From assembly GCA_903813345.2 (NCBI GenBank), contig CAIIXF020000012.1:5499318-5563317 (forward strand): a stretch of 64,000 nucleotides of DNA. Reading direction: 5' to 3'. This document shows positions 22,001-46,059 of the stretch, in pieces (the first letter of the stretch is position 1; each line of letters starts with the position of its first letter). The DNA is from Owenia fusiformis. Taxonomy: Eukaryota; Annelida; Polychaeta; Sabellida; Oweniidae. The position numbers and the translations under genes are program-made. Below the pieces are notes generated by a model. The model was not told the DNA's origin. It made no database searches and saw nothing but the letters and a program-made list of their open reading frames with translations.

Positions 22001-25000
22001 ATATCAATATGTGAAAATCAAGGATCCCTATGCTGATATTAAAAGAATCAATAAAAAGTGTTTTTACACGTTATGTGAAAATTTCATGGGAAAATGTCAA
22101 AAACCTTTTAAACGAGAGCATTTTTCCGTGAACTTATTGAACGACCTGGTATATGTGATATATATAAGTTTTATCCTACACTTAGTGTACTAAATGTATA
22201 ATAACATTAAAAAATAAATTTGATATTTATTGGCAAAATGAATAACCGAAGGATATCGTTACGATATACTCCGGGCGGAGGATATCGTGACGATATACTC
22301 CGGAAACCCCAATATGCGGAGGATATTGTTACGATATACTCCGCTTGTTGATTTCCCGCCAAAATGACTCTATTTGGCATGAAATTCGTAAATTTGCCCA
22401 TAAACACGATATATACGGAATCAATCATTATATAACCTCATAATATAGAATAATATCAGGCCAAATTAAATAATGTCAGTTTCTATAGATAATTTAATGT
22501 TTATTAAATAAATGTTTATTGCTTTAGAACGAAAAACGTATATATTTATAGGCAATGCTACAGACATGCCTCTAAAAAGCAGTTGTATGGCAAACACACG
22601 GTTCTTATTTCAGTATCCTACCATGCAATAATGCAGGACGTCCATGATTTGAGGAAGGGAATGCATATGGTCAGAACAGAAATGGACAGGCAAGAGCAGA
22701 ATAATAAAATCTTACAAGTATCCTTTGCAAAAAAAGGTTAGCTCATCCCCGCGGCATTTCCGGAACCATAATTACAAACCAAAAACACGTCAATGGGATA
22801 GTTCAAGCAAAGAGCATTTAGTACACAGGTACATGTACATATGTATCGAACAAATCCGTATAATAGGGCACTCTTGTAGGTTAGCCTGTCAACCCAATGT
22901 ATTTTTTTGGAATCTTGTAACCATGACAACCTATAAAATGGGACTTAAAAACGTATTGATTCTGACGGAGTATATCATATGCTTTAAAATGATATATAAC
23001 ACTACATATTTATGTCCATGTATATATTTTATATATTATCTCATAGGTACCATATATAGGAATTTTCAAAAATTCTTCAGTATATTAGTGCTTTTTGCCC
23101 CAGTATTGAATGAGTTCCCTCACTAAATTTAGTAACACAATAGAACGAGCTGTAATTTATCTTAAAGAATGTGCAGCTGTAACAAAAGACGAGTTTATTC
23201 TTTTCCTTTTGTTTTTAAAGATCAGACACTTGATAAGCTATCCAAAACCAGTTGTGCACAAACAACGATTGACAGTTTTTGACAGCTTCCATAATTTAAA
23301 AGCAATAAACATAATTAATATAATATGTACTCTTCGTTTGTGACCGTGCATTCTTTAAAATAAATAATTTTTATTATTTTGTGTTGCTACCTGTAGTATT
23401 GAGCTAAGCTTAGTTAGACTATGGATCATTTACCATTCATAAGAGTCAGTGTGGGTTTTGAGTAGTATAAACAATTTATACTAGTTCTTATGAGAAATAA
23501 TGGCCTAAGGCTCTCGGCAATCATTTCACCTAATCATGCTAATACAGGGTGACCCAAAAAAATGCAACCCTCCATTTCTTCAATATTTTTCTTAAATGGA
23601 GGTAAATTGCTCTGAGATTTGGCACACAAGAACTTCATTCAATGTGGGATCCTCTGGCAAAGTTTTAATAACGATAGTCTTATATTGATCGAGTTATGGT
23701 TGTTTCAAAATATGCTCCATATATCGTCAATTTCGCTGAAAACAAACTTGCAATGTTCAAGGAAAACTTTTCATAACACGGATGCATTCTTCCCCATGGG
23801 TATGGCTCAAATTTTTGCAGGAATGCTTGTTGGAGTTCTGCAATTGCAGTAGGGTAATATTTCCATACACATTATCCTTTAAATAACCCCATATATAGAA
23901 GTCAGGGGCATAGAGATCAAGACTGTGGGATGACCATGGGTTCTCCATCCTAGGAGAGATAATCTCATCATAGAAATGACTAGTGAGCCAGGCTATGCTA
24001 TCATAAGAAGTGTGAGGAGTAGCCCCATCCTTCTAGAATCACTGTTCTTGTCTATTGAAGCCTGTATGTCATTCTAGAACTGCCTAGAACTTCCTGGGAA
24101 TGCCAATATTGCGCTGTGTGTTAACAGTAACAGTGTTGCCATTATCAACCTCAAACCAAAAGGGGCTGATGATTTCATGTTTGGAAATTGGCAGCCCAAG
24201 CTGTGCATTTAACAGAATGAAGGGGCCTTCGAAGCACTTCATCTTGAATTTGTGATCCCAGAACACATTATTTCTTGAGTTTACATGTTCAGAAAGAAGG
24301 GAATGTGATTCTTCCGAAAACCTAACATTGGAAATGGACGACATTTGGAGCATATTTTGGAACGACCATAACTCTATCAATATAAGACTCTGATTATTGA
24401 AACTTTGCCAGAGGATCCCACATTGAATGAAGTCAGTGTGTGCCAAATTTCAGAGCAATTCACCTCCATTTAAGAAAAATATTGAAGAAATGGAGGGTTG
24501 CATTTTTTGGGTCACCCTGTAGAAAGTACGAATGGTTTATACATTACAAATAGGTCTCAAGAAGAAATAAAACCTTAATATTAAGGTCCATAAAAAGTAA
24601 GATAAAGGTAACCCAATGCAAAAGGGGACATAATTTACTTTTTTGAAGTCCTTAACTGTTTCAAGAGGTTTTATAACAACTCTACAGAACCTGTGAGAAG
24701 AGTAGGCGAAAGCTTTAAGAAGATGGAGGAGGCTTATAGGGAAGTCTGCATCAAATATGGAGAAGACTGGAAACATATTGAACCAGATGATTTTTTTCAA
24801 TATTTCACATCACTGCTATTGAATTTGAAGGCTAGTACTATTTTCTGATTGACTGATGCACATACATGACATAAATTAAGTAGTTTCCTAGAATTGTTCA
24901 AAATAAGATTGACGAATGTAATGGACATTCCGCCTTTTAAATTTTTCTTACTTTGATCTTTATGCTATTTATTACAGAACTGTCACAAAGATAATCAAAC

Positions 25001-27920
25001 TAGAGACAGTTTACCAGTAGTGGCATTGTCACGAAAACTACGGCCCAGTACTACACGACGTGTAAAATTATTGGGAGCTAACACACGACAACCGCTTGTG
25101 ACAAAAGAAAGTCTTTTACAAGCCATATCCAACCTGAAGCAAACAAGATCCCAGACTATAAATACAACAGAGCCAATGCATATGCAGATACCAATGAAGA
25201 GAGCAAGCACAATGGAGGAAGAGAGGCTTCTTGTCATTGAAAATGAAGAAGTAGAAAAGAAGAATAGAAAGAAGAAAGCGAAGGAAGGAAATATGCTTGG
25301 TTTCGGTAAGACTTTAAACGTACTAGGCGATGTTAAATATGTGAGGAAAGAGGCAGAAGACAAAGACGACAAAAAAGACACAAATAATAAGAAAGAAAAG
25401 AAAAAGAAGAATGTGTTGAAATCATGGGGAAAAATTGGAGTTGACGAAAAAGAACAAATTAACAAAAAGAAGGGCAAAAAGAGTAACCTGTCTAGTTTTG
25501 GTAAAGCTTTAAACACAGTAAGAGACGTAAAAAATGTGGACGACGTTTTATTAGACGATGAAGGAGGAAAAGAAGATGATGTAAATGAAGAGGAACAAAA
25601 AGAAACAGAAGAGAAACACAATCAACAGGGGAAACATAGCTCAACAAAGCTCGAGAAAAAGAAGAAAAACAAAAATAAGAAAAAGAACAAGAGAGAAGAG
25701 AACAAAAAGGAGAAGAAAAAAAGAAAGATTAAAAAAAGGAGAAAGGCAGAGAGAGAGAAAGATGCGGGGGATGAAGAGGAAGAAACAGATGAAGATGAGG
25801 AGATAGAAAGTGTCGAAAACACAGATGGAGAGGAGCAAGAAAAAGATAACAACGAAAAAGTTGAAGACAGTGAGGAAGATGATAATAAGAAAGAAGACGA
25901 AGAGGAAGCTTTAAACGTAGTAAGAGACGTAATAGATGTGGTTCATGTCGTACTAGGCGACAATGCAGGGAAGAAGAAAAAGAGGAAGGTGAAGAGTGGG
26001 AAGACAAAGCAGAAAATGAAGAGGATAAGGAGGAGGACAAAGAGAAAGAAAGAGGATGAAGAAGAGGAGGAAGACAAAGAGGACTATGATTACGAAAATG
26101 AGGAGGAGGAAGATGACGAAGACGATGAAGAAGACACAGAAGAAGATGAGGAGGAAGGCGAAGAGAAAGAAAATACAAAAGAGGATGCGGACGACAAAGA
26201 GGAGGATGAGGAAGGCATAGAGGAAGATGAAGATGATGAGGAAAAAGATGAAGACGAGGAAGCTGAAGAAAGCACAGATGAAGATAGTGACGAGACGGAG
26301 GAGGGCACAGAGGAAGAAAACACACAGCAAGAAGAGGACGAGAAAGAGGAGGATGAGGAAGGCATAGAGGAAGATGATGAGGAAAAAGATGATGATGATG
26401 TAGACGAAGAAGCTGAAGAAGACACAGATAAAGATAGTGACGAGACGGAGGAAGGCACAGAGGAAGAAAACACAGAGCAAGAAGAGGACGAGAAAGAGGA
26501 GGATGAGGAAGTCATAAAGGAAGATGATGAGGAAAAAGATGATGATGATGATGAAGACGAAGAAGCTGAAGAAGACGGAGGTGAAGATAGTGACGAGACG
26601 GAGGAAGGCACAGAGGAAGAAAACACAGAGCAAGAAGAGGACGACAAGGAGGAGGATGAGAAAGGAATGGAGGAAGATGAAGATGATGAGGAAAAAGATG
26701 AAGATGATGAAGACAAAGAAGCTGAAGAAGACACAGATGAAGATAGTGACGAGACGGAGGAAGGCACAGAGGAAGAAAACACAGAGCAAGAAGAGGACGA
26801 GAAAGAAGAGGATGAGGAAGGCATAGAGGAAGATGAAGATGATGAGGAAAAAGATGATGATGATGATGAAGACGAAGAAGCTGAAGAAGACGCAGATGAA
26901 GATAGTGACGAGACGGAGGAAGGCACAGAGGAAGAAAACACAGAGCAAGAAGAGGACGACAAGGAGGAGGATGAGGAAGGCATAGAGGAAGATGAGGAAA
27001 AAGATGATGATGATGAAGACGAAGAAGTTGAAGAAGACGCAGATGAAGATAGTGACGAGAAGGAGGAAGGCACAGAGGAAGAAAACATAGAGCAAGAAGA
27101 GGACAACAAAGAGGAGGATGAGGAAGGCATAGAGGAAGATGATGATGATGATGAGGAAAAAGAGGAAGATGAAGACAAAGAAGCTGACACAGATGAAGAT
27201 GATGACACAGAAAGCACAGAGGAAGAAAACACAGAACAAGGGAAGGACGACAAAGAGGAGGAGGAGGAGGAAGAAGAAGAAGATGATGAAGACGAACCAG
27301 CTCAAGAAGACACATATAAAGATGATGACGAGACGGAGGAAGGTACAGAGGAAGAAAACACAGAGCAAGAAGAGGATGACAAAGAGGAGGATGTGGAAGG
27401 CATAGAGGAAGATGATAAGGAAAAAGATGAATATGATCAAGAGGAAGAAGCTGGAGATGAAGACGATAAAGAGGAAGGCACAGAGGAAGAAAACATTGAG
27501 GAAGAGGAGGAAGACAAAGACCCGCATGAGGAATATTTAGATGATGAAGAAAAACAAGAGGAGGAAGACAAAGAGGAAGATGATGATGAAAAGGATGAGA
27601 AAGAAGATGACAGTGCGGAAGAGGAGAGGGAAGATGAAGAATACACTGGGGAGTTTGTAGAGGAAAAAGATGAGGAAGACGGATATGAGGAAGGCATAGG
27701 GGAAGAACAAAAGAGGGAAGATGAAGAATATACAGAGGAACTTGAAGAGCTGAAAAATGAAGGGGATGAGGATGACAGACATGAGGAGGAAGACATAGAG
27801 GAGCAAGATGACGAGGAAAAGAAAGACAATGAGGAACATAATGAAGATGAGGAGGGCATTGAAGACAAAGAGGAATACGAGGAGGAAGAGGAGGAGATAG
27901 ACCAAGATGAAAATGACTGA
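546..27920 (+). CDS. Formin, FMNL-like / diaphanous-related type, 22 exons seen, 5' end outside window
   Basis: Formins nucleate and elongate unbranched actin filaments under Rho-GTPase control at the cell cortex. I joined exons 546-1006, 1247-1330, 1505-1647, 3718-3844, 5916-5966, 6286-6384, 8260-8409, 8627-8743, 8941-9150, 9417-9485, 9732-9894, 10082-10206, 17969-18074, 18434-18670, 18937-19133, 19369-19455, 19650-19718, 20107-20187, 21626-21755, 22614-22717, 24666-24830 and 24978-27920. Phases close exactly, giving 1971 residues after the first partial codon. Order: unstructured N-terminus (1-153), GBD/FH3 (about 155-410), coiled coil (about 420-505), minimal FH1 (about 558-570), FH2 (about 580-991), basic/acidic tail (992-1971). 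FH2 marks include [39 protein letters not shown] and [10 protein letters not shown], the last two closest to FMNL proteins. The formin call is strong. The subfamily is inferred from remembered family patterns, not from an alignment. Confidence 0.9.
1247..1330 (+). CDS. Formin exon B (start of GBD)
   Basis: The acceptor is ttttag and the donor CAG|GTATAG, phase 0 at both ends. Residues [15 protein letters not shown] resemble the LP..KR..L.. segment that opens the GTPase-binding domain of diaphanous-related formins. In these proteins this region binds Rho-family GTPases and contributes to autoinhibition. Confidence 0.8.
1505..1647 (+). CDS. Formin exon C (GBD)
   Basis: The acceptor is ttcaag and the donor CCAG|GTATTA, ending two bases into a codon. 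The product begins [17 protein letters not shown], followed by a leucine-rich helix ([20 protein letters not shown]). This matches the P..YV..L.......L..LL..LR..L...P pattern of the formin GBD. Confidence 0.85.
1850..2420. repeat. Degenerate tandem repeat, about 130-bp unit, about four copies
   Basis: The words AAAATCATCTAAAAGTTCTC, AGAAGTTCAAATC.GACTT, GAGATTTGACCTC and AAAAAGGTAAA recur in order about every 130 bp. This type of ACCTTGACC-rich intron repeat is common in marine invertebrates. Confidence 0.7.
2634..3456. mobile_element. AT-rich MITE-like element with short terminal inverted repeats
   Basis: The left end TGCTTCTTTATTCGG.ACATTAA pairs with the right end TTTAATGAATAAAGAAGCA. The interior is full of TTCGGTAAAT and its complement ATTTACCGAA, including two direct copies of TTCGGTAAATAGCAAATTAG near 3093-3140. 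No coding capacity. Confidence 0.5.
3718..3844 (+). CDS. Formin exon D (GBD/FH3 armadillo helix)
   Basis: The acceptor is tatttag and the donor TCG|GTACGT. The split serine codon joins to [20 protein letters not shown], equivalent to the SWV.EF...GGL..LLD.L motif of the DRF GBD/FH3 fold. It follows exon C after a 2.07-kb intron filled with repeats. Confidence 0.85.
3845..5915. other. Formin intron D, mostly unremarkable
   Basis: Contains C-rich runs near 4308-4330 and a GC-richer stretch near 4860-4980, but no coding exon I can support. A small inverted-repeat element at its 3' end is listed separately. Confidence 0.5.
5704..5876. mobile_element. Small inverted-repeat element (about 170 bp)
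   Basis: GGTGTAAAAGGGTAGGTGGTCC on the left pairs imperfectly with GGACCATAATTTCTTTTACACC on the right. The interior has further self-complementary GGTCC/GGACC words. MITE-like, family unknown. Confidence 0.4.
5916..5966 (+). CDS. Formin exon E (FH3 micro-exon)
   Basis: A 51-bp exon between ttttcag and AAG|GTAAGT, phase 0 on both sides. It encodes [17 protein letters not shown], aligned with the family's H..I.CLKA.MN...G helix. It is short, and its support is phase, splice sites and position in the FH3. Confidence 0.75.
6286..6384 (+). CDS. Formin exon F (FH3)
   Basis: The acceptor is gttacag and the donor CAG|GTCAGG, 99 bp, phase 0. The product [20 protein letters not shown] and following helix matches the G...(V/I)....GA...I...L.......K..A..LL repeat of DRF FH3 and leads directly into exon G. 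Confidence 0.85.
6598..7275. mobile_element. 678-bp foldback MITE with 8-bp target site duplication
   Basis: The left end TTATCCTGTTCCCGGACTAT is the reverse complement, with few changes, of the right end (...GTCCTGGAACGGGATAA). Arms extend about 215 bp. An inner nested inverted repeat (about 6806-6855 against 6950-7003, word AACAAATCCATTTTACA) sits in the loop. CCAGTAAT occurs at 6590-6597 and again at 7276-7283, a clean 8-bp target duplication. The terminal 180 bp are homologous to the ends of the giant foldback at 10274-16828. An 8-bp duplication suggests hAT- or P-type transposition, but no transposase is present. Confidence 0.85.
7321..7457. repeat. Near-perfect hairpin, arms about 41 bp
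   Basis: ACTGGATGACCATGAGGTGG and following bases on the left reappear inverted at 7415-7457. The loop contains a second dyad, ATACTAGGC.../...GCCTAGTAT. The hairpin ends beside the element at 7461. Confidence 0.75.
7461..7894. mobile_element. 434-bp MITE with 15-bp perfect terminal inverted repeats
   Basis: TTTATTATGCACCTC at the left end and GAGGTGCATAATAAA at the right end are exact complements. The interior contains another copy of the GAGGATAGGTATTCTGG word from the neighbouring hairpin. No coding capacity. Confidence 0.6.
7894..7942. repeat. Perfect 49-bp hairpin
   Basis: AGTGAAATATTGGACC pairs exactly with GGTCCAATATTTCACT around a loop that is itself dyadic (GGGCCGAAGGCCC). It directly abuts the preceding MITE. 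Confidence 0.8.
7967..8199. mobile_element. Possible MITE with ATTATTACCACC ends
   Basis: ATTATTACCACC near the left end pairs with GGTGGTAATAAT near the right end. The interior contains GACCGGT dyads and a TGACGT...ACGTCA pair. Weak evidence. Confidence 0.35.
8260..8409 (+). CDS. Formin exon G (FH3)
   Basis: The acceptor is tttccag and the donor CAG|GTATAC, 150 bp, phase 0. [19 protein letters not shown] followed by [12 protein letters not shown] is the most recognisable FH3 segment here (family pattern LL.ALC....G...VL.A.......E..RF..L...L). Confidence 0.92.
8627..8743 (+). CDS. Formin exon H (FH3 end)
   Basis: The acceptor is ctttacag and the donor AAG|GTTAGA, 117 bp, phase 0. [20 protein letters not shown] then [12 protein letters not shown] fits the ACM.FIN......D...R..L..EF...GL helix pair that closes the DRF FH3 domain. 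Confidence 0.92.
8941..9150 (+). CDS. Formin exon I (FH3 to coiled coil)
   Basis: The acceptor is tatcccag and the donor GAG|GTAAGT, 210 bp. After [20 protein letters not shown] come charged heptads ([20 protein letters not shown]) typical of the coiled coil that follows FH3 in FMNL and DAAM/DIAPH proteins. Confidence 0.85.
9299..9448. repeat. (AAAT)n tract and 70-bp tandem duplication spanning a splice acceptor
   Basis: AAATAAATAAAT-type repeats run to about 9324. From about 9309, GTAACACAAAAGAA and flanking bases occur twice with an exact 70-bp offset (9347 and 9417). The second copy carries the functional ttgtag acceptor and the start of exon J. Confidence 0.75.
9417..9485 (+). CDS. Formin exon J (coiled coil)
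   Basis: A 69-bp exon between ttgtag and CAG|GTATGT. It encodes [20 protein letters not shown] and then RLQ, continuing the helix. Its 3' splice site and first bases lie in the second copy of a 70-bp tandem duplication, whose first copy has lost the AG acceptor (ttcaag). Confidence 0.8.
9732..9894 (+). CDS. Formin exon K (linker before FH1)
   Basis: The acceptor is atttcag. The donor TTAC|GTAGGT leaves one base that completes a Gln codon with exon L. The product is charged and then Ser/Thr-rich, ending SRKRFL. The in-frame alternative reads on to a stop, so the donor at 9895 is required. Confidence 0.75.
10082..10206 (+). CDS. Formin exon L (FH1 and FH2 lasso)
   Basis: The acceptor is atttcag and the donor AAG|GTAAAC. 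It encodes a single short polyproline run ([11 protein letters not shown]), which is the whole FH1, and then [19 protein letters not shown]. The lasso Trp of FH2 is in LNW. The second hydrophobic lasso position is Phe, as in FMNL-type formins. The next intron (10207-17968) holds the giant foldback. Confidence 0.92.
11218..12690. repeat. Minisatellite in left foldback arm (AATACAATGCAGTGC-type)
   Basis: About 1.45 kb built from AATACAATGCAGTGC variants with units of roughly 10-15 bp. TAC/TGC/AAT/CAG words leave all frames open, producing long Cys/Ile/Leu/His or Gln/Asn/Cys reading frames on both strands. These are compositional artefacts, not genes. Confidence 0.9.
13464..13682. other. Loop of the giant foldback
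   Basis: About 220 bp between the arms, made of the same GTGCGCA / ACTGGGCCGCGGTGTG words seen in the outer arms. The loop is therefore probably derived from arm sequence rather than from a coding core. Confidence 0.6.
14455..15888. repeat. Minisatellite in right foldback arm (inverted copy)
   Basis: Reverse-complement counterpart of the left-arm minisatellite (GCACTGCATTGTATT variants). Copy order differs in places from the left arm, suggesting unequal exchange or repeat slippage after the inverted duplication. Confidence 0.9.
16351..16642. repeat. 146-bp tandem duplication present only in the right arm
   Basis: TAATTAACTTTGCACAACGC begins at 16351 and again at 16497, and each copy runs through TCCCCTATCGCTTTCCGTA. 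The left arm has a single copy (about 10590-10745). Confidence 0.8.
16907..17916. mobile_element. Deleted Tc1/mariner-type element with TA duplication
   Basis: CAGGGTGTCCCAAAAAAAAG at the left end matches the complement of the right end, and inverted homology continues for about 200 bp. The element is flanked by TA on both sides. It carries a shrunken transposase pseudogene on the minus strand and lies 78 bp beyond the giant foldback. Confidence 0.85.
17254..17611 (-). pseudogene. Mariner-like transposase remnant lacking the DDE core
   Basis: Reading from 17611 on the minus strand, [25 protein letters not shown], an internal stop, [19 protein letters not shown] and another stop form a helix-turn-helix DNA-binding N-terminus of the DUF4817 type. 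It is fused after a frame change to a typical transposase C-terminus ([20 protein letters not shown] ... [14 protein letters not shown]). The DDE catalytic centre is missing, so it cannot encode an active enzyme. Confidence 0.8.
17969..18074 (+). CDS. Formin exon M (FH2)
   Basis: The acceptor is gtttcag and the donor CAAG|GTAAGG, ending one base into a codon. [19 protein letters not shown] matches the FMNL-type FH2 pattern D(D/E).ILE.LN.(D/E).FE..F. This confirms that the 7.76-kb intron with the foldback is spliced within the FH2 domain. Confidence 0.92.
18434..18670 (+). CDS. Formin exon N (FH2 knob/linker)
   Basis: The acceptor is ttttaacag and the donor CTAC|GTAAGA. The exon ends with DRARNL, the family's (K/R)RA.N(L/V) motif before the actin-binding Ile. 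The first 65 residues are diverged from typical FH2 linker sequence, so the acceptor is less secure than the donor. Confidence 0.8.
18937..19133 (+). CDS. Formin exon O (FH2)
   Basis: The acceptor is catttcag and the donor GAA|GTAAGC. The product starts [20 protein letters not shown] and contains [16 protein letters not shown], which corresponds to the canonical L..LL..LPT..E...L helix. The Ile after RARNL sits at the position critical for actin binding in characterised formins. Confidence 0.93.
19369..19455 (+). CDS. Formin exon P (FH2)
   Basis: The acceptor is atttatag and the donor TCA|GTAAGA, 87 bp. [20 protein letters not shown] resembles the FMNL FH2 segment F.KIERL..K...M.F..NF. Confidence 0.92.
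19650..19718 (+). CDS. Formin exon Q (FH2)
   Basis: The acceptor is gttgtag and the donor CAG|GTAAGT, 69 bp. [20 protein letters not shown] fits the Q...I..AS..V..S.KL.K.L. helix of FH2. Confidence 0.9.
20107..20187 (+). CDS. Formin exon R (FH2 GNYMN motif)
   Basis: The acceptor is atttgtag and the donor AAA|GTACGT, 81 bp. [15 protein letters not shown] followed by GFKLDSLPK is the signature FH2 motif and is nearly identical to the FMNL form. Confidence 0.96.
21092..21324. mobile_element. Inverted-repeat element of about 233 bp
   Basis: TTCTTCAAACGTGTTCCATT through TTTCTGTTGGT is mirrored by ACCAACAGAAAGGC through AATGGAACAAGTTTGAAGAA, arms about 50 bp. It lies in the intron after formin exon R. 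Confidence 0.65.
21626..21755 (+). CDS. Formin exon S (FH2)
   Basis: The acceptor is tttgtcag and the donor [30 protein letters not shown] matches the L.(D/E).KS.D....LLH.(I/V) helix that follows GNYMN in FH2. It then ends in a Gly-rich turn (VGRGG). Confidence 0.9.
21787..22149. mobile_element. Palindromic MITE of about 363 bp
   Basis: CCAGGTCGTTCAATAAGTTC at the left end is exactly complementary to GAACTTATTGAACGACCTGG at the right end. Arms extend inward with mismatches (TTTTTGATATTTTCTCATGA against TCATGGGAAAATGTCAAAAA). The interior includes TGACTT and ACGTCA. No coding capacity. Confidence 0.8.
22247..22344. repeat. Three direct copies of a near-palindromic GGATATCGTTACGATATACTC... unit
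   Basis: GGATATCG(T/G)(T/A)ACGATATACTCCG occurs at about 22251, 22280 and 22321. Each unit is self-complementary (GGATATCG against CGATATAC). Confidence 0.8.
22614..22717 (+). CDS. Formin exon T (FH2)
   Basis: The acceptor is tatttcag and the donor CAA|GTATCC, phase 0. [20 protein letters not shown] matches the family's D(V/I)..L..GM......E helix. A later donor (after 22736) is possible but would add a non-family Lys run. Confidence 0.88.
23545..24519. mobile_element. Second deleted mariner-type element (CAGGGTGACCC ends)
   Basis: CAGGGTGACCCAAAAAAATG pairs with the complement at 24500-24519, followed inward by about 190 bp of inverted homology. It is flanked by TA. The right arm is part of the transposase remnant on the minus strand. 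It is a different family from the element at 16907. Confidence 0.85.
23757..24330 (-). pseudogene. Mariner-like DDE transposase fragment
   Basis: On the minus strand, [14 protein letters not shown], then [19 protein letters not shown], then after stops and frame changes [16 protein letters not shown] and [20 protein letters not shown] with [12 protein letters not shown]. These are the central and C-terminal blocks of the Tc1/mariner transposases whose hallmarks are QDGATPHTS and SPDL.P.DFFLWGYLK. The N-terminus is missing and there are several disruptions. Confidence 0.8.
24666..24830 (+). CDS. Formin exon U (FH2 C-terminal subdomain)
   Basis: The acceptor is tttcaag. The exon ends AAG|GCTAGT, a GC donor. 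[23 protein letters not shown] and [12 protein letters not shown] reproduce the FH2 end pattern (A...F..(V/L)..YFGE.P....P..FF..F..F). Using the GT four bases later instead gives a stop six residues into the next exon. Confidence 0.9.
24978..27920 (+). CDS. Formin last exon: DAD-like stretch, Lys-rich then Glu/Asp-rich repeat tail
   Basis: The acceptor is attacag and the stop TGA is at 27918-27920. The first 60 residues are basic and include [13 protein letters not shown], which faintly resembles the diaphanous autoregulatory (DAD) helix MD.LLEAL. Next come Lys-rich blocks with three copies of an FGKALN/VRDV motif. From about 25770 there are near-continuous Glu/Asp/Lys repeats of roughly 50 residues ([20 protein letters not shown] core, about seven copies). 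Purine-only codons (GAA, GAC, GAT, AAA) explain the long Ser-rich frames on the other strand. It could instead be a separate gene or isoform starting at an internal ATG, but the open frame reaches the splice acceptor with no stop. Confidence 0.7.
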   Translation, partial: NCHKDNQTRDSLPVVALSRKLRPSTTRRVKLLGANTRQPLVTKESLLQAISNLKQTRSQTINTTEPMHMQIPMKRASTMEEERLLVIENEEVEKKNRKKKAKEGNMLGFGKTLNVLGDVKYVRKEAEDKDDKKDTNNKKEKKKKNVLKSWGKIGVDEKEQINKKKGKKSNLSSFGKALNTVRDVKNVDDVLLDDEGGKEDDVNEEEQKETEEKHNQQGKHSSTKLEKKKKNKNKKKNKREENKKEKKKRKIKKRRKAEREKDAGDEEEETDEDEEIESVENTDGEEQEKDNNEKVEDSEEDDNKKEDEEEALNVVRDVIDVVHVVLGDNAGKKKKRKVKSGKTKQKMKRIRRRTKRKKEDEEEEEDKEDYDYENEEEEDDEDDEEDTEEDEEEGEEKENTKEDADDKEEDEEGIEEDEDDEEKDEDEEAEESTDEDSDETEEGTEEENTQQEEDEKEEDEEGIEEDDEEKDDDDVDEEAEEDTDKDSDETEEGTEEENTEQEEDEKEEDEEVIKEDDEEKDDDDDEDEEAEEDGGEDSDETEEGTEEENTEQEEDDKEEDEKGMEEDEDDEEKDEDDEDKEAEEDTDEDSDETEEGTEEENTEQEEDEKEEDEEGIEEDEDDEEKDDDDDEDEEAEEDADEDSDETEEGTEEENTEQEEDDKEEDEEGIEEDEEKDDDDEDEEVEEDADEDSDEKEEGTEEENIEQEEDNKEEDEEGIEEDDDDDEEKEEDEDKEADTDEDDDTESTEEENTEQGKDDKEEEEEEEEEDDEDEPAQEDTYKDDDETEEGTEEENTEQEEDDKEEDVEGIEEDDKEKDEYDQEEEAGDEDDKEEGTEEENIEEEEEDKDPHEEYLDDEEKQEEEDKEEDDDEKDEKEDDSAEEEREDEEYTGEFVEEKDEEDGYEEGIGEEQKREDEEYTEELEELKNEGDEDDRHEEEDIEEQDDEEKKDNEEHNEDEEGIEDKEEYEEEEEEIDQDEND

Positions 27921-30637: not shown

Positions 30638-31043
30638 ACTGCAATATTTTGTTAATTAATCAATGTGTCAGAACGAATAAAATGTACTTAAACCAGTGAG
30701 CGTGAACGAATTTAATGTACAATATCTATAATTAGGTCAACTAATTAGGTAACTAGGTCAACATGTAAGCAAGTAGGTGTAATTCAACCAGTGAGCAAAA
30801 ATTCAAATATCATTGTCAAAATTGACAGTGACTGATGTATAACTCTACTGGATTACTTATGAATGTCTAGTGCATGTATTTACTGGATTATAGTAGCAGA
30901 TACTGGATCATATCTCCATATTTGAGTGACTTTTAGATGTAAAATATTTTGAGGATAAAATCAGCACCTGAGGGATCGATCATTCTCAACATAGTGTAAC
31001 AGATAATATTTATTCAACTTCTGAAGGTGAACTATCCTTTGTT

Positions 31044-32210
31044 ATGCAAAGATATCTCACCCCAGTGCAAACATCTGTCAAGCGCAAGGCACCAAAGAAG
31101 ACAAAATCACCTATTAGCCCCAGTATGACGAGTCCTCCTACTAAAAATCAAAAACCTCTCTCAACTGTTGAAAAACTTGAGGAACTATCTCAGAAGGTAG
31201 AACTTTTGTCAACCAAACAAGAGGAGTCTGACCGTCGTGTTCATGAGCTTGAACTGGAGAATGCCTACCTTTATCACATTGTTGCAATGCTTGATGGGCG
31301 CATAGCTAATAACGATGATAGAATTGGATCCCTTAAGGATGGTCTTACTGACATACGTTTCCGTTCAATGAAGCAGAACGTTATTATAAGAAACCTGCCC
31401 CAGTCTAAGGATGAGGTTTGCTGCAATGTAGTCAGAGATTTTCTGAAAACCAACCTGAAGGTACCAAACGAGCTTATTGAATCTCCTGAAAATCCAAATG
31501 GATCCACAAAGCTTGACGTTGCTCACAGATTCGGCCCAAAGTTTAACAATACACAAATGATGGTTGCCAAATTTGTTAACCGTAAAAGCAAAATCAACGT
31601 CATGTCATATGCTCGTAATCTGGCTGGGTCAAATATCTCCATCTCTGATCAACTACCTCCTGAAATGCTCCAGAAGAGGAACGCACAGTATCCCCATTTC
31701 AAGGAACTCAAGCTTAAAGGGGAACATGCAACACTGAGACAAGATGTTCTCAAGGTAGATGGTGAAATAGTCGATCCCCAGTTCTGCAAGAACAAACTAC
31801 CCCTTGACATTCACCTGGACCCCTCTATGATAACCAAGTCTCTGAGTCAATCAAAAACTCATTTTGAGCAGGGAACAAAGATCTTGGCTCATGCTTCAGT
31901 CGTGGAGAACCAGCAAGAAGCTAAAACTGCTTTGTGCAAGGTATATGAGAACCGTGATTATGCTACCGCGTCTCACAATATATACGCCTACAGAGTGAAA
32001 CTTAATGATACGATTGTCGAAGGGCATAACGATGATGGAGAGTACGGATCAAGCAAGGATATCCTTAAGCTTCTACAAGACAAGGGAATCAGCAATGGGA
32101 TTGTCATTATTACAAAATGGGATGGTGTCCGAGGTCTTGGCCGCAAGACCAAGGAGCTTTTGCTAGCCACTGCCACTGAGGCTCTCATACAAAGTGGCCA
32201 CACTCCTTAG
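31044..32210 (+). CDS. LINE ORF1: coiled coil + L1-ORF1p-like RNA-binding region + IMPACT/YigZ (UPF0029) domain
   Basis: ORF1 proteins coat the element's RNA. Residues 1-45 are basic and Ser/Pro-rich. Residues 50-110 are heptad-rich (EKLEELSQKVELLSTKQEES). Residues 110-245 match the Transposase_22/L1 ORF1p pattern: KQNVIIRNLPQS, LDVAHRFGP, MMVAKFVNRKSKINVMSYAR, GSNISISDQLPPEMLQKRNA and GEHATLRQDVLKVDG. Residues about 280-385 then match IMPACT/YigZ: ILAHASVVENQQEAKTALCK, YENRDYATASHNIYAYR, NDDGE at 329-333, ISNGIVIITKWDG and GLGRK. IMPACT proteins in animals restrain the GCN2 kinase pathway, and YigZ is a bacterial homologue of unclear role. The domain assignment is by motif recall. The fusion itself is a single uninterrupted frame. 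Confidence 0.88.
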   Translation: MQRYLTPVQTSVKRKAPKKTKSPISPSMTSPPTKNQKPLSTVEKLEELSQKVELLSTKQEESDRRVHELELENAYLYHIVAMLDGRIANNDDRIGSLKDGLTDIRFRSMKQNVIIRNLPQSKDEVCCNVVRDFLKTNLKVPNELIESPENPNGSTKLDVAHRFGPKFNNTQMMVAKFVNRKSKINVMSYARNLAGSNISISDQLPPEMLQKRNAQYPHFKELKLKGEHATLRQDVLKVDGEIVDPQFCKNKLPLDIHLDPSMITKSLSQSKTHFEQGTKILAHASVVENQQEAKTALCKVYENRDYATASHNIYAYRVKLNDTIVEGHNDDGEYGSSKDILKLLQDKGISNGIVIITKWDGVRGLGRKTKELLLATATEALIQSGHTP

Positions 32211-33282
32211 CCTGTGTGATTCTACTTCAAGTAGACATTGACAGGTCCCCAATACACAAGGCTATGTACAAGTCCTAACTATTAACCTTTCATGTACTAT
32301 AGGTTCCTGTACTTTTACAGTGCTATATACCGCATAGGAGAGACCTATAAACCATACTTTTAATCCCGATGTTTGATATTTAAGCTGATTGCCTCATATG
32401 ATGATTGCCAGAGAGTGAATTTATTATCTGGGTTATTGGACGATTGCCATATTACTGGTCTAAGCTATTATATAGATGATTATGATTAGGAATATCCACT
32501 TCATTGACTTTATACTTTTTCATAAAATGACCATGGCATTTAAATCTTGAGTATATGTGAGCATCTATGTATAATATAATTGTTTACTCTGTATATAGTT
32601 CTTTGCGAGGTCAAGATTGAGGATCTGTGCATATGACTGAAATATTTTTGTGTTTACTTTCCTATATATAACTGCCATCTATATTTGAATTTTACTCTTC
32701 AGTTACTTATCATATTGTGCTGTGCTGCGCTATTATACCAAGTGTAGATAGCTACTGAATCTTGAATGGATTGAAATAGTCCACTTATATAGATGATTAC
32801 GACTAGGAATATCCACTTCATTGACTTCATACTTTTTCATGAAATGACCATGGCATTTAAATTTTGATTGAATGTGAGCATCTATGTATAATATAATTGT
32901 TTACTCTGTATATAGTTCTCTGCGAGGTCAAGATCGAGGATCTGTGCATATGACTGTAAATATTTTTGTGTTTAATTTTCCTATATAACTGCCATCTATA
33001 TTTGAATTTTACTCATCAGTTACTTATCATATTGTGCTGTGCTCTATGATTGGGTTCCACTTTATGTTTTATGTGTATAAAGACCATTTGTTTGTTGCAA
33101 GGGGTTAACCTTGTTACACGTGTAGCTAGGTTTCAGGAGTCCACTGCCTGGGGTCGGGCAACCACAGGTTTCCAATAGGGTATAACTTTTCTTCAATTAA
33201 AATTTCTCGATTTGTATATAAATTGTTAACTGCTACTTGTTCTTTGTTAACACACTGATAAACATGCACTAAATTAAACGCA
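32211..33282 (+). repeat. LINE inter-ORF spacer with about 320-bp tandem duplication
   Basis: The block from ATATAGATGATTA(T/C)GA(T/C)TAG to CATATTGTGCTGTGCT occurs at about 32470-32727 and again at about 32790-33044 with a few per cent divergence. A 1.07-kb spacer between ORF1 and ORF2 is unusually long, because these frames usually touch or lie within a few hundred bases. Confidence 0.8.
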
Positions 33283-36200
33283 ATGGGTATCGACGTTACA
33301 GCGTGGCGAAGATCCATTGGGTACTTTAATTGTACTGGAATTCCAAGGAAAAGTAAACCTTTACCTAATGATATCTTTATTATGGGCTTATTAAAGTTGT
33401 GCATGAAGTTCTTACATGGAAAGTGTGCTCAATTTACCAACTATTTTAAGTTGATTTTTATCCTAATCATTTTAATAGTCACTTTGAGCTTGTTAGATGT
33501 TTGTATCAGTCTGGTGATTATCTATCTAATCACAACATTAGCTTTTTTCTATTCACTTATTGTCTCATGCTTACTGCCACTAGGTATAAAAGCATGCATG
33601 AGCCCATTGGATTATACCAATGAGCTATTAAGATTTAGAGTTATGCGATGTATGTGTTGTTCTATCATGTTTATCTTATGGTTTGGTTGTATCGTATGTT
33701 TTGTGCCCAGTACAATCCAAACACTTTTAGCCATGTGTGGAGATATTGAGCCTAACCCTGGGCCTGATATAGACAAAGATGTTCCATTAAAATTTATGTT
33801 TTCAAACATTAATAGTATTGGAGCGAGGTACATGTCCAGATTTAATGCACTTAAAGAACGAATTGAAATAGGTAACTTTAAAATTGTTGGTTTATGTGAA
33901 GTCGGGAATTACTCACAGCATGATATTAAGAACAAATTTAATATTGATGGGTTTCATCCACCAATTTACATAAATGAAAATAGAGGTTTGCTTATCTATG
34001 TAAGTGAAGATATCCCTCAACCTAAACTTAGACATGATCTAATGAATGATAATAATGATGCTATTTGGCTTGACTTAAGACTTAATCATAGAGTAATTAC
34101 ATATGGGCTTTATTACCGTTCACCATCATTAACACGTCCTGAAACGGATTCTTTTTTTGACCGCTTTAATACAAGCTGCACATTGGCCAAATCAAAATCA
34201 TCATGTTTTCTAGTAGTTAATGGTGATTTCAATGCTCGAAATAAGCATTGGTGGAGCGAAAAAAATAAATATGAAGGTGAGTCTCTTCTAGAATTATGTC
34301 AAAATCTAGGTCTTATACAGTTGATTAATGAACCAACACGTGTAACTTTGACAAGCAGGTCATGCATTGATCTACTTATTACCAATATTCCAAACTTGAT
34401 CACATCTTCCATGGTGACGCCACCAGTAGGTAATACTGACCACAGCACGCTGGTTTTTGAGACCCTTATTGGGATTACAAAAAATCCATCTTTTCTACGT
34501 AGGGTATGGAAATACGACAATGTTAATGTTTCCACTCTGAATAACTCAATTCGTCACTCGCGACTTTGTAATATAATTGAAGACTCAAATGACTTGAACA
34601 ACATTGGGAAAGAGTTCGCCAGTTCATTATTCGATATTTTTTGTTCTTGCATTCCAAATAAACAAATAAGAGTAAAATCAAATGACAAGCCATGGTTTAC
34701 TGACAAAATCAGAACATTAATCAACAAAAGGAACAAATGTCACTATGCATTTCGCCATTCTAACAAACCTGAACAATTTGATAGATATCTTGCCCAGTGC
34801 ACAATTGTAGATAATGCCATTACTCAAGCGAAACTCGAACATGAAAAGCGGATAATTAGTAAAATGGAAACACAACATTTTGGTTCAAAATCTTACTGGA
34901 ACATCACATCTAAATTATTTTCAAACAGTCGATCTAGTTCAATACCTATTCTTGTTGACGATCTGGGTAATACTGTCAGGTCAGGCAAAGATAAAGCCAA
35001 TATTTTCCTGAATCATTTTATTAAAAGTTTTCATTTTGAAGGGCCTGTTGATAATGCTTTTTTACATCTTCGTACAAATGAGTCAATCAACATGCTGTCA
35101 ACAAATTACAATGAAGTTTTCGAAACGTTGATGAATTTAAATGTAAATAAGGCCTCTGGACCAGACCAAATTAGTAATAAAATGCTAAAACTGGCAGCTC
35201 CCGCTCTCTCTCAACCATTATCTAAACTTATCAACAAGATTTTTGCAACAAACTGTTTCCCTCAATGCTGGAAACTTGGTAACATTGTTCCCATTCATAA
35301 GAAAAGTGACAAAAATACTCCATCAAATTATAGGCCAATTACACTTTTAAGCTGTCTTTCAAAAGTTACTGAGAGAATCATATTTAATAAGGTTTTTAAA
35401 TTTCTTGTGGATCAGAATTTATTATATAATCTACAAAGTGGGTTTTTACCTGGCCACAGTACTCAATTTCAGTTACTGACAATAATTGATTACTTGACTG
35501 AGCATTTAGATGCAGGATTTAATGTAAAAGCGGCATTTTTGGACATCTCGGCCGCGTTTGACACAATTCCTCATAACCTTCTTTTGAATAAACTTCCTAG
35601 TTATGGTTTCGGTCCTGATGTATGCTCTTTGTTGAGATCATACTTAACTAATCGCAGGGTCAAAGTTGTCATCGATGGCCAAAGTTCTGAATGGTCAAAA
35701 GAAAGTTACATCAACTCTGGAGTTCCCCAAGGATCAATATTAGGCCCTCTTCTTTTTCTTATCTATATCAATGACATAACTGACCATATTGACTCTAGAT
35801 GTTATCTCTATGCGGACGATACGTCCATCTACCAGCCATTTCAAGCTGGTGATATAGATATAAAGATGACTGAATTACAAAATGATCTAGATGCAATTTA
35901 CAATTGGTCTGACAAATGGAAATTAAAGTTCAAAGCGAGTAAAAGTGCTGAGTTAAATTTCTTTGACCCTAGGAAAGCAGAATTGCTTACTCCTTCTTTG
36001 TCTTTGGGTGGTGACATTATTCCAAAGGTAAATAACCACAAGCATCTTGGTTTAGTTTTTGATAGCCAGCTTACCTTTGAACCACATATTATCGAATCAG
36101 CTAATAAAATTGATAAGTTGCTAAACCACTTGAAAAGTATATCAAGAAAATTGGGTGGTAAACATCTGAAGCTTATGTTCAACTCTTATATTCTGCCTCA

Positions 36201-37023
36201 TTTTGATTTATATGATATTTTGTACGGATGTGCAAACCTAACAACTCTGAAGAGCCTAGATAGGCTTTATTATAAAGCTGCAACAATATGTGCAGGTACA
36301 ATTGCTGGAACCTCGTCTACTAAACTGTTCCATGTATTGAATTGGCCAAGCTTGGAGATTCGTAGAAAGATACATAGACTTACATTTATGTTCAAAGTGC
36401 AATGTGGAAATGTACCTCATTATGTTTCAACAATTTTTGACAAATACAAAAAAACAAATATCAGAGATGTTCGTAATGTAATACCTTTTCAAGTTCCACT
36501 ACGTCGCTCAAGAATACGCTCTAGATCTCCCACCTTCTTGTGTATGACTGAGTTCAACGGATTGAGCTCCAAGATTAGAAACTGTGATACAATCAAGACT
36601 TTTAAGAATAATATTAGTCAATTGTTCTTAAATAATGATATTATATTGGCATCAGAGTTGGGCATTAATAGGGCTGACGAGATATATTTGAATAGAATAA
36701 GAGTTGACCTCATATTTAATGCTCACCTTCATGCCCATAACTTTGTCAATGTAAACTCACCTGAATGTATATGTGGTGACAAAAGTGAAACAACAAAACA
36801 TGTAATATTTTCTTGTCCTATTCGACAACCATTCTACATAAGCTTTGAACAGAAGCTTTTTGATTTACTTCCGAACTACAGGCATTTATGCAAAAATAGA
36901 CAAGATAAACTTGACTTATTTCTCTTTGGTCACCCATCTCTTTCTCTTAGTAAGAACCATGAAATACTTGCATCCAGTGCTCTGTTTATCAGACAGTGTT
37001 TCGAAAGACCCCAGGCAGTTTAA
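33283..37023 (+). CDS. LINE ORF2: hydrophobic leader, 2A-like motif, APE endonuclease, reverse transcriptase
   Basis: Makes the nick and copies element RNA by target-primed reverse transcription in the nucleus. Residues 1-155 contain hydrophobic segments (LIFILIILIVTLSLLDVCIS and others). GDIEPNPGP follows at 153-161, a 2A-like sequence predicted to break the peptide at Gly160/Pro161. The APE endonuclease shows FSNINS, GLCEVG, NGDFNARN, CIDLLITN and NTDHSTL. The reverse transcriptase shows NKASGPDQI, SNYRPI, FLDISAAFDT, SGVPQGSILGPLLF and YADD at 843-846. The C-terminus has a Cys/His knuckle (CICGDKSETTKHVIFSC). All catalytic motifs are present and the frame is intact. The clade call CR1/Jockey-like is an inference. 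Confidence 0.93.
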   Translation: MGIDVTAWRRSIGYFNCTGIPRKSKPLPNDIFIMGLLKLCMKFLHGKCAQFTNYFKLIFILIILIVTLSLLDVCISLVIIYLITTLAFFYSLIVSCLLPLGIKACMSPLDYTNELLRFRVMRCMCCSIMFILWFGCIVCFVPSTIQTLLAMCGDIEPNPGPDIDKDVPLKFMFSNINSIGARYMSRFNALKERIEIGNFKIVGLCEVGNYSQHDIKNKFNIDGFHPPIYINENRGLLIYVSEDIPQPKLRHDLMNDNNDAIWLDLRLNHRVITYGLYYRSPSLTRPETDSFFDRFNTSCTLAKSKSSCFLVVNGDFNARNKHWWSEKNKYEGESLLELCQNLGLIQLINEPTRVTLTSRSCIDLLITNIPNLITSSMVTPPVGNTDHSTLVFETLIGITKNPSFLRRVWKYDNVNVSTLNNSIRHSRLCNIIEDSNDLNNIGKEFASSLFDIFCSCIPNKQIRVKSNDKPWFTDKIRTLINKRNKCHYAFRHSNKPEQFDRYLAQCTIVDNAITQAKLEHEKRIISKMETQHFGSKSYWNITSKLFSNSRSSSIPILVDDLGNTVRSGKDKANIFLNHFIKSFHFEGPVDNAFLHLRTNESINMLSTNYNEVFETLMNLNVNKASGPDQISNKMLKLAAPALSQPLSKLINKIFATNCFPQCWKLGNIVPIHKKSDKNTPSNYRPITLLSCLSKVTERIIFNKVFKFLVDQNLLYNLQSGFLPGHSTQFQLLTIIDYLTEHLDAGFNVKAAFLDISAAFDTIPHNLLLNKLPSYGFGPDVCSLLRSYLTNRRVKVVIDGQSSEWSKESYINSGVPQGSILGPLLFLIYINDITDHIDSRCYLYADDTSIYQPFQAGDIDIKMTELQNDLDAIYNWSDKWKLKFKASKSAELNFFDPRKAELLTPSLSLGGDIIPKVNNHKHLGLVFDSQLTFEPHIIESANKIDKLLNHLKSISRKLGGKHLKLMFNSYILPHFDLYDILYGCANLTTLKSLDRLYYKAATICAGTIAGTSSTKLFHVLNWPSLEIRRKIHRLTFMFKVQCGNVPHYVSTIFDKYKKTNIRDVRNVIPFQVPLRRSRIRSRSPTFLCMTEFNGLSSKIRNCDTIKTFKNNISQLFLNNDIILASELGINRADEIYLNRIRVDLIFNAHLHAHNFVNVNSPECICGDKSETTKHVIFSCPIRQPFYISFEQKLFDLLPNYRHLCKNRQDKLDLFLFGHPSLSLSKNHEILASSALFIRQCFERPQAV

Positions 37024-37164
37024 GCCTTTTACCATTTAGGCTTACAATTTTTATTTTTTACCCCTTTATATAAGTATTCTAGATGTGGCTAATAATGCTT
37101 TAAGCCCAGCCGCAGGACTATATTGTACTGTTATATTATATAAATGAATAAATAAATAAATAAA

Positions 37165-38215
37165 AAAAATATATATATATCTATAATGCGTATGAAGAGA
37201 CATTACGCTCTTTCTTCAGTATGGACATGTATATGAACCAACACGCCTGTGTATATACTTTCTCCAGTATGTTCTCATATACTCATGATATACATGATAT
37301 GATATGATATGATATACATATATACTCATATACTCATGATATATATCATGTACTCCATTGTTTATGAACACACATTTATTATGGCACATTTTCTGAAAAG
37401 TCTTTCACATGATGTTTAGGGTCATTCATTCATACAAACTAGAGAGAGTATGAGAATATTGATTAATCCAATCTGAGTGATATGATAGATAGTTGGTTAT
37501 TCAAAAAGAGAGGTTTACTTAGAATTTGAATATCAAATAGATTTGGATCAAGTGTTATAAAGAATCTGATCTTCTTAACTTACTTAACTTCGAGCACGCA
37601 GATAAATATTCAATGGATTTACATAAAATACAGAGTTCCTGTGACAATGGCATTTATTTTTAATAATCAAGAAAGTACTTTGCACCCTCCCGCCAATCAT
37701 TCTAGTACACATCGCATCTAGAAACATGTCTGTGTCTATCATGTAAGAAGAGAGGGTCAAGGTATTCCATGATGGAGCATTTTGGAAACCCTTCTATCTT
37801 AGAGATTGCTATGCTGAAAATGGGCTATTGGTATACACTGTATACAAGTAATGCAGATTGCTCCGATATTCACTACGGTGCCATGCCGATTGAGTATTTT
37901 GTTCAAAATTAAATACAATATTGAACAAACGGAGCAAATGTGACCCAGACATCAATGTAGTATGAATTTATTTTGTTAGGATGCCAGTCAGAGCTCTTGG
38001 TGCAAGTATTAAGTTTGCGAACATGCTTGTCAACCATGGCAAATTAGAAAAGTGCACCCCTTCTATATGATAATATAAACCCTTCCTACACCTTGGTTTA
38101 GCTTTGGATCACTATGCTATCACTATGTGGCAGAAATGCATTCTGATTGGATATAAATGATCACATGACTTAGTTCACCAAGGTATCAGGAGATGACATG
38201 CCAAAATGTAAAATC
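37165..38215. other. LINE 3' flank, no gene seen
   Basis: Contains the AT dinucleotide run and (GATAT)n/CATATACTCAT-type simple repeats near 37260-37345, then ordinary AT-rich DNA. A HTGE-like minisatellite word near 37240 echoes the array on the other side of the LINE. Confidence 0.5.
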
Positions 38216-44979: not shown

Positions 44980-46055
44980 GAAGAGAATTTCCCAGTGCTA
45001 AAACATCTGGTATAGGCTAATCATTTAATAACAAATATAACTTTTTAGATGCAGTGTTTAGAGTATACATATTTCTTGATGTGTATTAAGTAATGTGATA
45101 CTTTGGTAATATACATTTTGCAGTTAGATTGACAAAATAGATTTTAGATTCATAATTCACAGTTTCTCAACTTTTCCTATCTCCTTACTGGAGAACTCTG
45201 TGACACACCACATATTCAATTAATGAAACTTCATCAAACTCAGAGTTATAGTAAAAGTTGTTCAACTGGTTCATTGTTGGTTTAATTTAAATAGGAAAGT
45301 CTGAACAACCAAAATTGTAATAAAATCATCAAAATAGAAAATAATGTCTGTTAATTGCTATCAGATTCATACAGTCCACTCAAAAGCACACACCATTTAT
45401 TCATTTATGGATACATTAATATCATTTCAATTCCAAATGAAGTTTTTTCTGAAGAAAGAATGCATATTAAGGTGAATAAAGTCAATGAATCACAACAGTA
45501 GCAGTAGTTCTCTTAAAACTAAGAATTGCGTTGATTGTGCCAGCACAATCTGGAGCACAACCAGTGACACATGCTATGTTTTCTTCTATTAAGCAACTGA
45601 TATTGAATTCACACCCTTATATATGTTTGAACATATGTGATTGAGAGAGAATCTGATCTACAACATAACCATCTAAGCATAATATGAACTTTTTTATGTT
45701 AATTCGCATAAAAAACATAATGGTAATAGTGCCGATCCTTGTTTTACACCTATTTTCTTCCCTTAGTGGGCACATAATGCATCTAAAATGATTGCTGAGG
45801 TTCAAGAGACATAAAAGTTTCATTTGAACTTAAATCTAGCACTTGTAGCTCAATACATGATTATATTTTTCATTTGTATTAACATTTGGAAAGATCGTTG
45901 GATATATTGGCGGCCATCTTGAATTTTGGGACCAAAAAGTGAAAATTTTTCTTGCGGCCACGGATCAATTTTTTTAAAACTCTCTAAAGAAACTCTGTAC
46001 CAAAATTCACGCTTCTATCACAATTTGAAACGTTCTGGTGGTATTTTCCCTAAAT
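44980..46055. other. Stretch without recognised gene
   Basis: AT-rich DNA. I see no exon, inverted repeat or array that I can support up to the truncated LINE. Confidence 0.5.
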
Positions 46056-46059
46056 CTGT

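Follow-up and report, generated by a model that had tools for sequence, protein, structure and literature searches.

A LINE ORF1 protein of Owenia fusiformis with an L1-ORF1p-like core and a C-terminal UPF0029 domain under purifying selection

The DNA analyzed here (the window) is a stretch of 64,000 nucleotides from the annelid Owenia fusiformis (assembly GCA_903813345.2, contig CAIIXF020000012.1, positions 5,499,318 to 5,563,317 of the forward strand). It carries a long interspersed nuclear element (LINE) whose first open reading frame (ORF1) encodes a protein of the L1-ORF1p-like (type II) kind, with a coiled coil, an RNA recognition motif (RRM) and a C-terminal domain (CTD), plus a UPF0029 domain at the C terminus. 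An initial annotation, made from the letters of the sequence without database searches, had described an uninterrupted 388-codon frame with a coiled coil and an L1-ORF1p-like core running into a block that resembles IMPACT and YigZ proteins. The frame was borne out at 31044-32210 on the forward strand, and so were the coiled coil and the core. The features of ORF1 are as follows, with coordinates of the window.

31044..32210, + strand: ORF1, 388 amino acids, open reading frame
31164..31367, + strand: coiled coil, residues 41-108; a single helix in AlphaFold2, which would coil with other chains
31377..31649, + strand: RRM-like domain, residues 112-202; beta-alpha-beta-beta-alpha-beta order in AlphaFold2, Foldseek matches to LINE-1 ORF1p and RRMs
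31659..31778, + strand: CTD-like region, residues 206-245 (in the model to about 238); AlphaFold2, profile match to 2yko across the region, Foldseek
31815..32207, + strand: UPF0029 (IMPACT/YigZ ancient) domain, residues 258-388; PF01205, AlphaFold2 domain model, Foldseek

The ORF1 frame is open for 388 codons from its ATG and for 412 codons from stop to stop. The AlphaFold2 model of the whole protein had a mean predicted local distance difference test score (pLDDT) of 84.9 and a predicted template modeling score (pTM) of 0.72, with the UPF0029 fold extending to residue 384, and the helix of the coiled coil scored between 83 and 93 in ten-residue blocks. A family profile built from 23 ORF1 rows (alignment A1) matched human LINE-1 ORF1p (2yko) with an E value of 2.2e-6 over positions 51-276, and the whole ORF1 model matched the same structure in Foldseek (E=2.5e-7). 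The Pfam scan of the single window ORF1 protein gave no match to Transposase_22 (PF02994) at E<=1.

The PF01205 model matched residues 279-369 of the window protein with 54.4 bits (gathering cut-off, 27; E=1.4e-14). The nearest solved protein, found with phmmer against PDB sequences, was the Protein IMPACT homolog 6bqi (Yih1) over residues 269-386 (E=1.6e-5), and the family profile A1 matched 6bqi at positions 237-377 (E=2.8e-15). In Foldseek, the whole ORF1 model matched Yih1 (6.8e-7), the Thermus protein 2cve (3.7e-5) and 1vi7 (YigZ; 5.2e-4). When the UPF0029 domain was modeled alone, the pLDDT was 91.1, and the sole matches at E<=0.001 were 6bqi Yih1 (E=2.1e-8), 2cve (TT1547; E=3.7e-7) and 1vi7 YigZ (E=1.5e-5), with TMq values of 0.67-0.70. 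The full-length YigZ model TIGR00257 scored 29 bits, below its curated cut-off of 167.95 bits. The identity that the initial annotation gave to this block was confirmed both by profile and by comparison with the YigZ and IMPACT structures.

The LINE domains were compared with four cellular rows, namely host IMPACT, Yih1, TTHA1053 and YigZ, two of which are partial and of which the bacterial ones are short. Fifteen columns were invariant in the cellular rows; 5 were kept in 13-15 of the 15 LINE rows, 3 in 8-10 and 7 in 1-5. The three residues of the DDG run were retained in 15/15, 14/15 and 13/15 LINE rows and two alanines in 13/15 each. The motifs quoted in the initial annotation were all present, but GIVIITKWDG...GLGRK proved to be a degraded version of the cellular RW.GG..LG motif. 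The isoelectric point (pI) was at least 8.7 in 9 of the 15 LINE UPF0029 domains, compared with 4.9-6.2 in the four cellular rows (two partial). The ORF1 family of L019, L020, L021 and L052 carries a degenerate UPF0029 domain without the HN of HN.YAYR.

A search of the genome (498 Mb, 525 contigs) with the PF01205 profile at E<=0.01 gave 39 matches, of which 38 were over the cut-off. Two were exons of the host IMPACT gene, and the remaining 37, window included, were LINE ORF1s or ORF1 fragments; 36 of these were read as protein, and L002 was compared as DNA only. Open frames of at least 373 codons held 22 of the 37 LINE matches (one of the 22 contains a TGA), and the 22 full-length ORF1 rows formed 14 clusters at 80% identity and 11 at 50%. 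With the ORF1 protein as the query (P0001), 73 places in the genome were matched at E<=0.001. In 30 of them the match spanned the core into UPF0029 (query start <=142, end >=320), with identities from 100 to 23%; two places that match both halves, C358 and C34, were left out of the retrieved loci. In alignment A1, PF01205 was matched in 23/23 rows at E<=0.1 and in 22/23 at E<=0.003, three of the rows (L019-L021) having been selected by ORF1 similarity and not by the PF01205 model. All 18 loci examined by blastp had ORF1 matches. For the short fragment L048 the top blastp match was host IMPACT (29% identity), its own family being absent from the small database; by eye, the fragment is nearly identical to L031 and L043. 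The host IMPACT gene lies at C2:17.29 Mb (L032:2531-6520) and has introns, an RWD exon and UPF0029 exons. Its joined exon translations matched Yih1 (E=1.9e-30) and its upstream exon matched RWD (E=1.5e-5). No relatives were found in IMG/VR and GTDB contigs, which are virus and prokaryote collections and uninformative on other animals. The fusion seen in the window recurs within this genome, with 37 non-host matches, and the combination of ORF1 and UPF0029 is old and present in at least 14 families.

Rates of nonsynonymous to synonymous substitution (dN/dS, omega) were estimated with the MG codon model, the deep rows being saturated at synonymous sites. The omega of UPF0029 was 0.082 in 8 rows of one group, 0.133 in 8 rows of the other group and 0.093 in a 5-row subset of the first. 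Forcing omega=1 on the domain made the log-likelihood worse by 130, 84 and 79 units, respectively. The corresponding values were 0.041-0.072 for RRM-CTD and 0.044-0.088 for the coiled coil. In the best-behaved pair, L025/L029, the dS of UPF0029 was 1.02 and its dN/dS was 0.06, with 0.04 for RRM-CTD and 0.12 for the coiled coil. The near-identical pairs L013/L014, L019/L020, L027/L028, L022/L033 and L022/L034 had too few differences, with ratios that ranged from 0 to 1.1 or were undefined. The comparison of dN/dS across copies that the initial annotation had named as a check indicates that UPF0029 is under purifying selection, with a constraint somewhat weaker than that on RRM-CTD.

The element that contains this ORF1 is a LINE of the apurinic/apyrimidinic endonuclease (APE) type, with the following further features.

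30751..37169, + strand: LINE element, approximate bounds; 5' end at the limit of similarity to copy L002, 3' end at the A-rich/ATAA tail
32468..33043, + strand: tandem duplication in the spacer, a repeat between ORF1 and ORF2 with a 317-bp period and 1.8 copies
33262..37023, + strand: ORF2, 1253 amino acids from stop to stop, with PF14529 and PF00078
33742..33765, + strand: 2A-like motif DIEPNPGP, by sequence; preceded by a strongly hydrophobic region at the N terminus of ORF2
34111..34446, + strand: AP-endonuclease-like domain PF14529 (Pfam E=2.9e-13)
35293..35955, + strand: reverse transcriptase (RT) PF00078 (Pfam E=4.8e-32)

The element looks complete because the ORF1 and ORF2 frames are both open. 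At the 3' limit, the similarity to copies L089 and L090 stops at 37169 and 37168, and the spacer of copy L002 holds one unit of the 317-bp repeat. The 2A-like motif is found in 8 of the 20 UPF0029 elements examined (the window and L013-L031), and 2A and UPF0029 therefore do not go together. Excerpts of PMC4981915 report that, in sea urchin NLR proteins, 2A-like sequences at the N terminus double as signal sequences.

With the window RT as the query, 150 of 3,966 candidates were scored. By coordinates, a plain ORF1 precedes at least 19 of these 150 RTs and a UPF0029 ORF1 at least 3; the counts were taken from 68 of the 129 plain ORF1 matches and 31 of the 73 P0001 matches and are lower bounds. 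An RT tree of 24 rows was computed, omitting L017, L023 and L027 (without an RT match), L030 and L031 (partial), and L020 (a near copy of L019). The window RT paired with that of L079 (67% identical; support, 95/90), whose ORF1, L057, had no UPF0029 match at E<=0.001. The same was true at this threshold for all ten plain ORF1s (L057, L065, L069 and L082-L088). Forcing the 14 UPF0029 rows together was rejected by the approximately unbiased (AU) test (p=0.002), as was forcing the 9 plain rows together (p=0.003). There are also RTs with 71-75% identity to the window RT, and two that were checked showed no ORF1 upstream. When upstream ORF1s were sought among the two longest same-strand frames of at least 100 codons, 3 of 20 stretches upstream of RT relatives had an ORF1 (L057, L065 and L069) and 17 had none. 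The 17 include two RT relatives of 72-75% and a 100% copy, probably 5' truncated.

Our preferred reading, to which we assign a probability of roughly 0.6, is that UPF0029 is a selected addition to an L1-ORF1p-like LINE ORF1 and may serve the LINE ribonucleoprotein as an accessory module that docks onto RNA or ribosomes. The coiled coil would mediate oligomerization of ORF1p and RRM-CTD would coat the LINE RNA. UPF0029 would then keep the ribonucleoprotein attached to RNA or to the translation machinery, presumably docking through the DDG face that is common to the cellular relatives. Kept under selection in many old diverged copies, the domain is probably useful to the element. According to excerpts of PMC4503747, Yih1 is found in complex with ribosomes, and the invariant positions common to Yih1 and YigZ map to a single side of the protein. 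The basic pI of 9 of the 15 LINE domains, set against the lower values of the cellular rows, also speaks for docking.

Several points weigh against this reading. The docking role is drawn by analogy, and in the same excerpts of PMC4503747 the major binding stretch of Yih1, which overlaps the ribosome-sufficient one, includes the linker between RWD and the ancient domain; therefore, ribosome binding need not reside in UPF0029. Among the LINE rows, the E of DDGE was found in 4/15 and the H of HN in 8/15, and little of the RW.GG..LG loop remains (R in 4/15, the glycines in 3/15 and 10/15, and the last G in 1/15). The UPF0029 domains of L019 and L021 are acidic (pI 4.6 and 4.4) and lack HN. Near RT relatives do without UPF0029, so the domain is dispensable for such LINEs in general.

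The loss of this loop, together with the often basic character of the LINE domains, would also suit a humbler role, in which UPF0029 is a mere add-on for folding or oligomerization, or an extra CTD-like RNA-binding surface, with no link to the ribosome. Such an addition would have parallels in the ORF1 types with extra modules (PHD, esterase and CCHC) that are known from excerpts of PMC4120745. However, the DDG run of the cellular relatives is kept in 13-15 of the 15 rows, which argues against this alternative, and we consider it possible but clearly less probable than a docking module.

In a tree of the RRM-CTD cores (25 rows, omitting the near copies L014, L020, L023, L027, L033, L034, L037 and L038, the partial L031, and fragments), 9 plain ORF1s were split from 15 UPF0029 ORF1s and L088 with a support of 100/100. 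Because the UPF0029 elements are not one RT clade and yet their ORF1 cores split at 100/100, the ORF1 module with UPF0029 has been shuffled against ORF2 across LINE lineages. We read these trees as suggesting an early fusion to an L1-type ORF1, after which ORF1 modules may have been exchanged between LINE lineages, in accordance with the reticulate evolution of ORF1 that excerpts of PMC4120745 describe in CR1 and L2. The trees would fit an exchange of ORF2 equally well, and the fusion may have occurred more than once.

If UPF0029 was joined to LINE ORF1s several times independently, instead of once with later reshuffling, this would explain the scatter of UPF0029 elements on the RT tree (AU p=0.002). 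It would also explain the position of L088, an L1-type ORF1 without UPF0029, which groups with seven UPF0029 rows at 100/99. This placement counts against a single fusion, and the tree as found therefore requires that L088 lost the domain or that a second fusion took place. A tree uniting the 15 UPF0029 rows was 10.5 log units worse and was not rejected (AU p=0.099). On the other hand, all 15 UPF0029 cores lie on one side of the 100/100 branch, opposite the 9 plain ORF1s. In a tree of the UPF0029 domain itself (19 rows), the 15 LINE domains were split from host IMPACT, Yih1, TTHA1053 and YigZ at 90/83, which excludes only captures from different branches among the four cellular rows. This tree does not settle the number of fusions, because with two LINE groups and a single cellular group the arrangement is inevitable. 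On balance, we regard several fusions as rather unlikely. L088:1-4501 is a LINE with an L1-like ORF2 (the label is our reading of the sequence), and its ORF1 stops after the CTD.

Identity between the LINE UPF0029 domains and that of host IMPACT is 21-31%, indicating that the capture was not recent. A two-residue insert after DDGE occurs in two bacterial fragments and is absent from the LINE domains and from IMPACT/Yih1. The capture of a host domain, as proposed in the initial annotation, is consistent with this absence insofar as it points to a eukaryotic IMPACT-type source, which is not firm with bacterial rows so short and few. Origin from a bacterial YigZ is disfavored by the missing insert, judged from the two bacterial fragments only. 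A eukaryotic IMPACT-type domain would have been joined to an ORF1 of the L1 type on one or a few occasions, and the capture probably proceeded via mRNA because no intron remains.

The initial annotation had also linked the domain to the GCN1/GCN2 pathway; by interfering with it in the manner of IMPACT, ORF1p might keep LINE RNA in translation during stress. This proposal draws on the family relation to IMPACT/Yih1 and did not hold up well. GCN1 binding in IMPACT/Yih1 maps to the RWD domain (excerpts of PMC5054600 and PMC7140605), whereas RWD is absent from the four Pfam families matched by the 23 ORF1 members at E<=0.003; host IMPACT, in contrast, has an RWD exon. An IMPACT-like block of GCN2 is unlikely because the GCN1-binding RWD is absent, and we consider interference with this pathway improbable. 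An excerpt of PMC7140605 describes the ancient domain itself as being of unknown function. A chance open frame, or a single chimera of an IMPACT retrocopy and a LINE fragment, would look alike in a lone copy but is refuted within this genome by the 37 non-host matches, the 14 families and an omega of 0.08-0.13.

Elsewhere in the window, a 987-codon open frame at 24957-27920 is of low complexity and has an extreme E/D/K content. Simple repeats at 11156-15920 contain long, probably spurious frames of the ALHCIVLYC type on both strands. The 458-codon frame at 45923-47299 resembles the 3' half of another LINE ORF2, with matches to RVT_1 (E=0.00025) and zf-RVT (0.037) that are both under the curated cut-offs.

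The window ORF1 resembles LINE-1 ORF1p and type II ORF1s in its coiled coil, RRM and CTD, by profile and by fold, but adds a C-terminal UPF0029 domain. Between the window RT and the RT of L088, an L1-type element (again labeled by our reading of the sequence), the identity is only 24%. With IMPACT/Yih1 and YigZ, the LINE version shares the UPF0029 fold and the DDG motif. Unlike them, it has no RWD, carries a degraded RW.GG..LG motif, is intron-less and lies inside a LINE, at the low identity to host IMPACT given above. The type II ORF1s of CR1 and L2, with or without PHD, are alike in their modular, reticulate ORF1 and Tnp22-like core, as far as excerpts of Metcalfe and Casane 2014 (PMC4120745) describe them. 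In those excerpts, a survey of Jockey-superfamily ORF1s in 448 elements gives PHD, esterase, CCHC, RRM and Tnp22 as the main domains; UPF0029, IMPACT and YigZ occur 0 times in the text of PMC4120745. APE-type LINEs with 2A, in excerpts of PMC11512398 and PMC4981915, likewise have an NPGP motif near the N terminus of ORF2; the element described here differs in the UPF0029 of its ORF1. A search of 5.39 million open-licence papers, a scope outside which lie subscription papers, Repbase notes and preprints, found four that mention UPF0029 and none that pairs it with retrotransposons or transposable elements. Two papers in that literature that mention YIH1 and IMPACT together with retrotransposons are on other subjects, judging by their titles. 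These results agree with the statement of the initial annotation that a LINE ORF1 with this domain is not known to have been described, and we rate the UPF0029-bearing ORF1 as a new ORF1 architecture, although it may have been reported earlier.

Of the parts of LINEs, ORF1 proteins are understood least, and a selected domain held in common with a translation regulator gives a handle on them beyond RNA coating. Lineages that carry UPF0029 and lineages that lack it, with RT identities of up to 67%, form natural pairs that make its contribution testable. LINEs also present UPF0029, for which the function is described as unknown, in a protein that lacks the accompanying RWD domain. More tentatively, LINEs may have adopted the ancient domain of a translation regulator, kept it for long and passed it on as an ORF1 module that tethers the ribonucleoprotein to ribosomes; we hold this fuller account to be rather doubtful. 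If it is true, ribosome tethering would favor cis-acting translation as well as an escape from stalling or repression.
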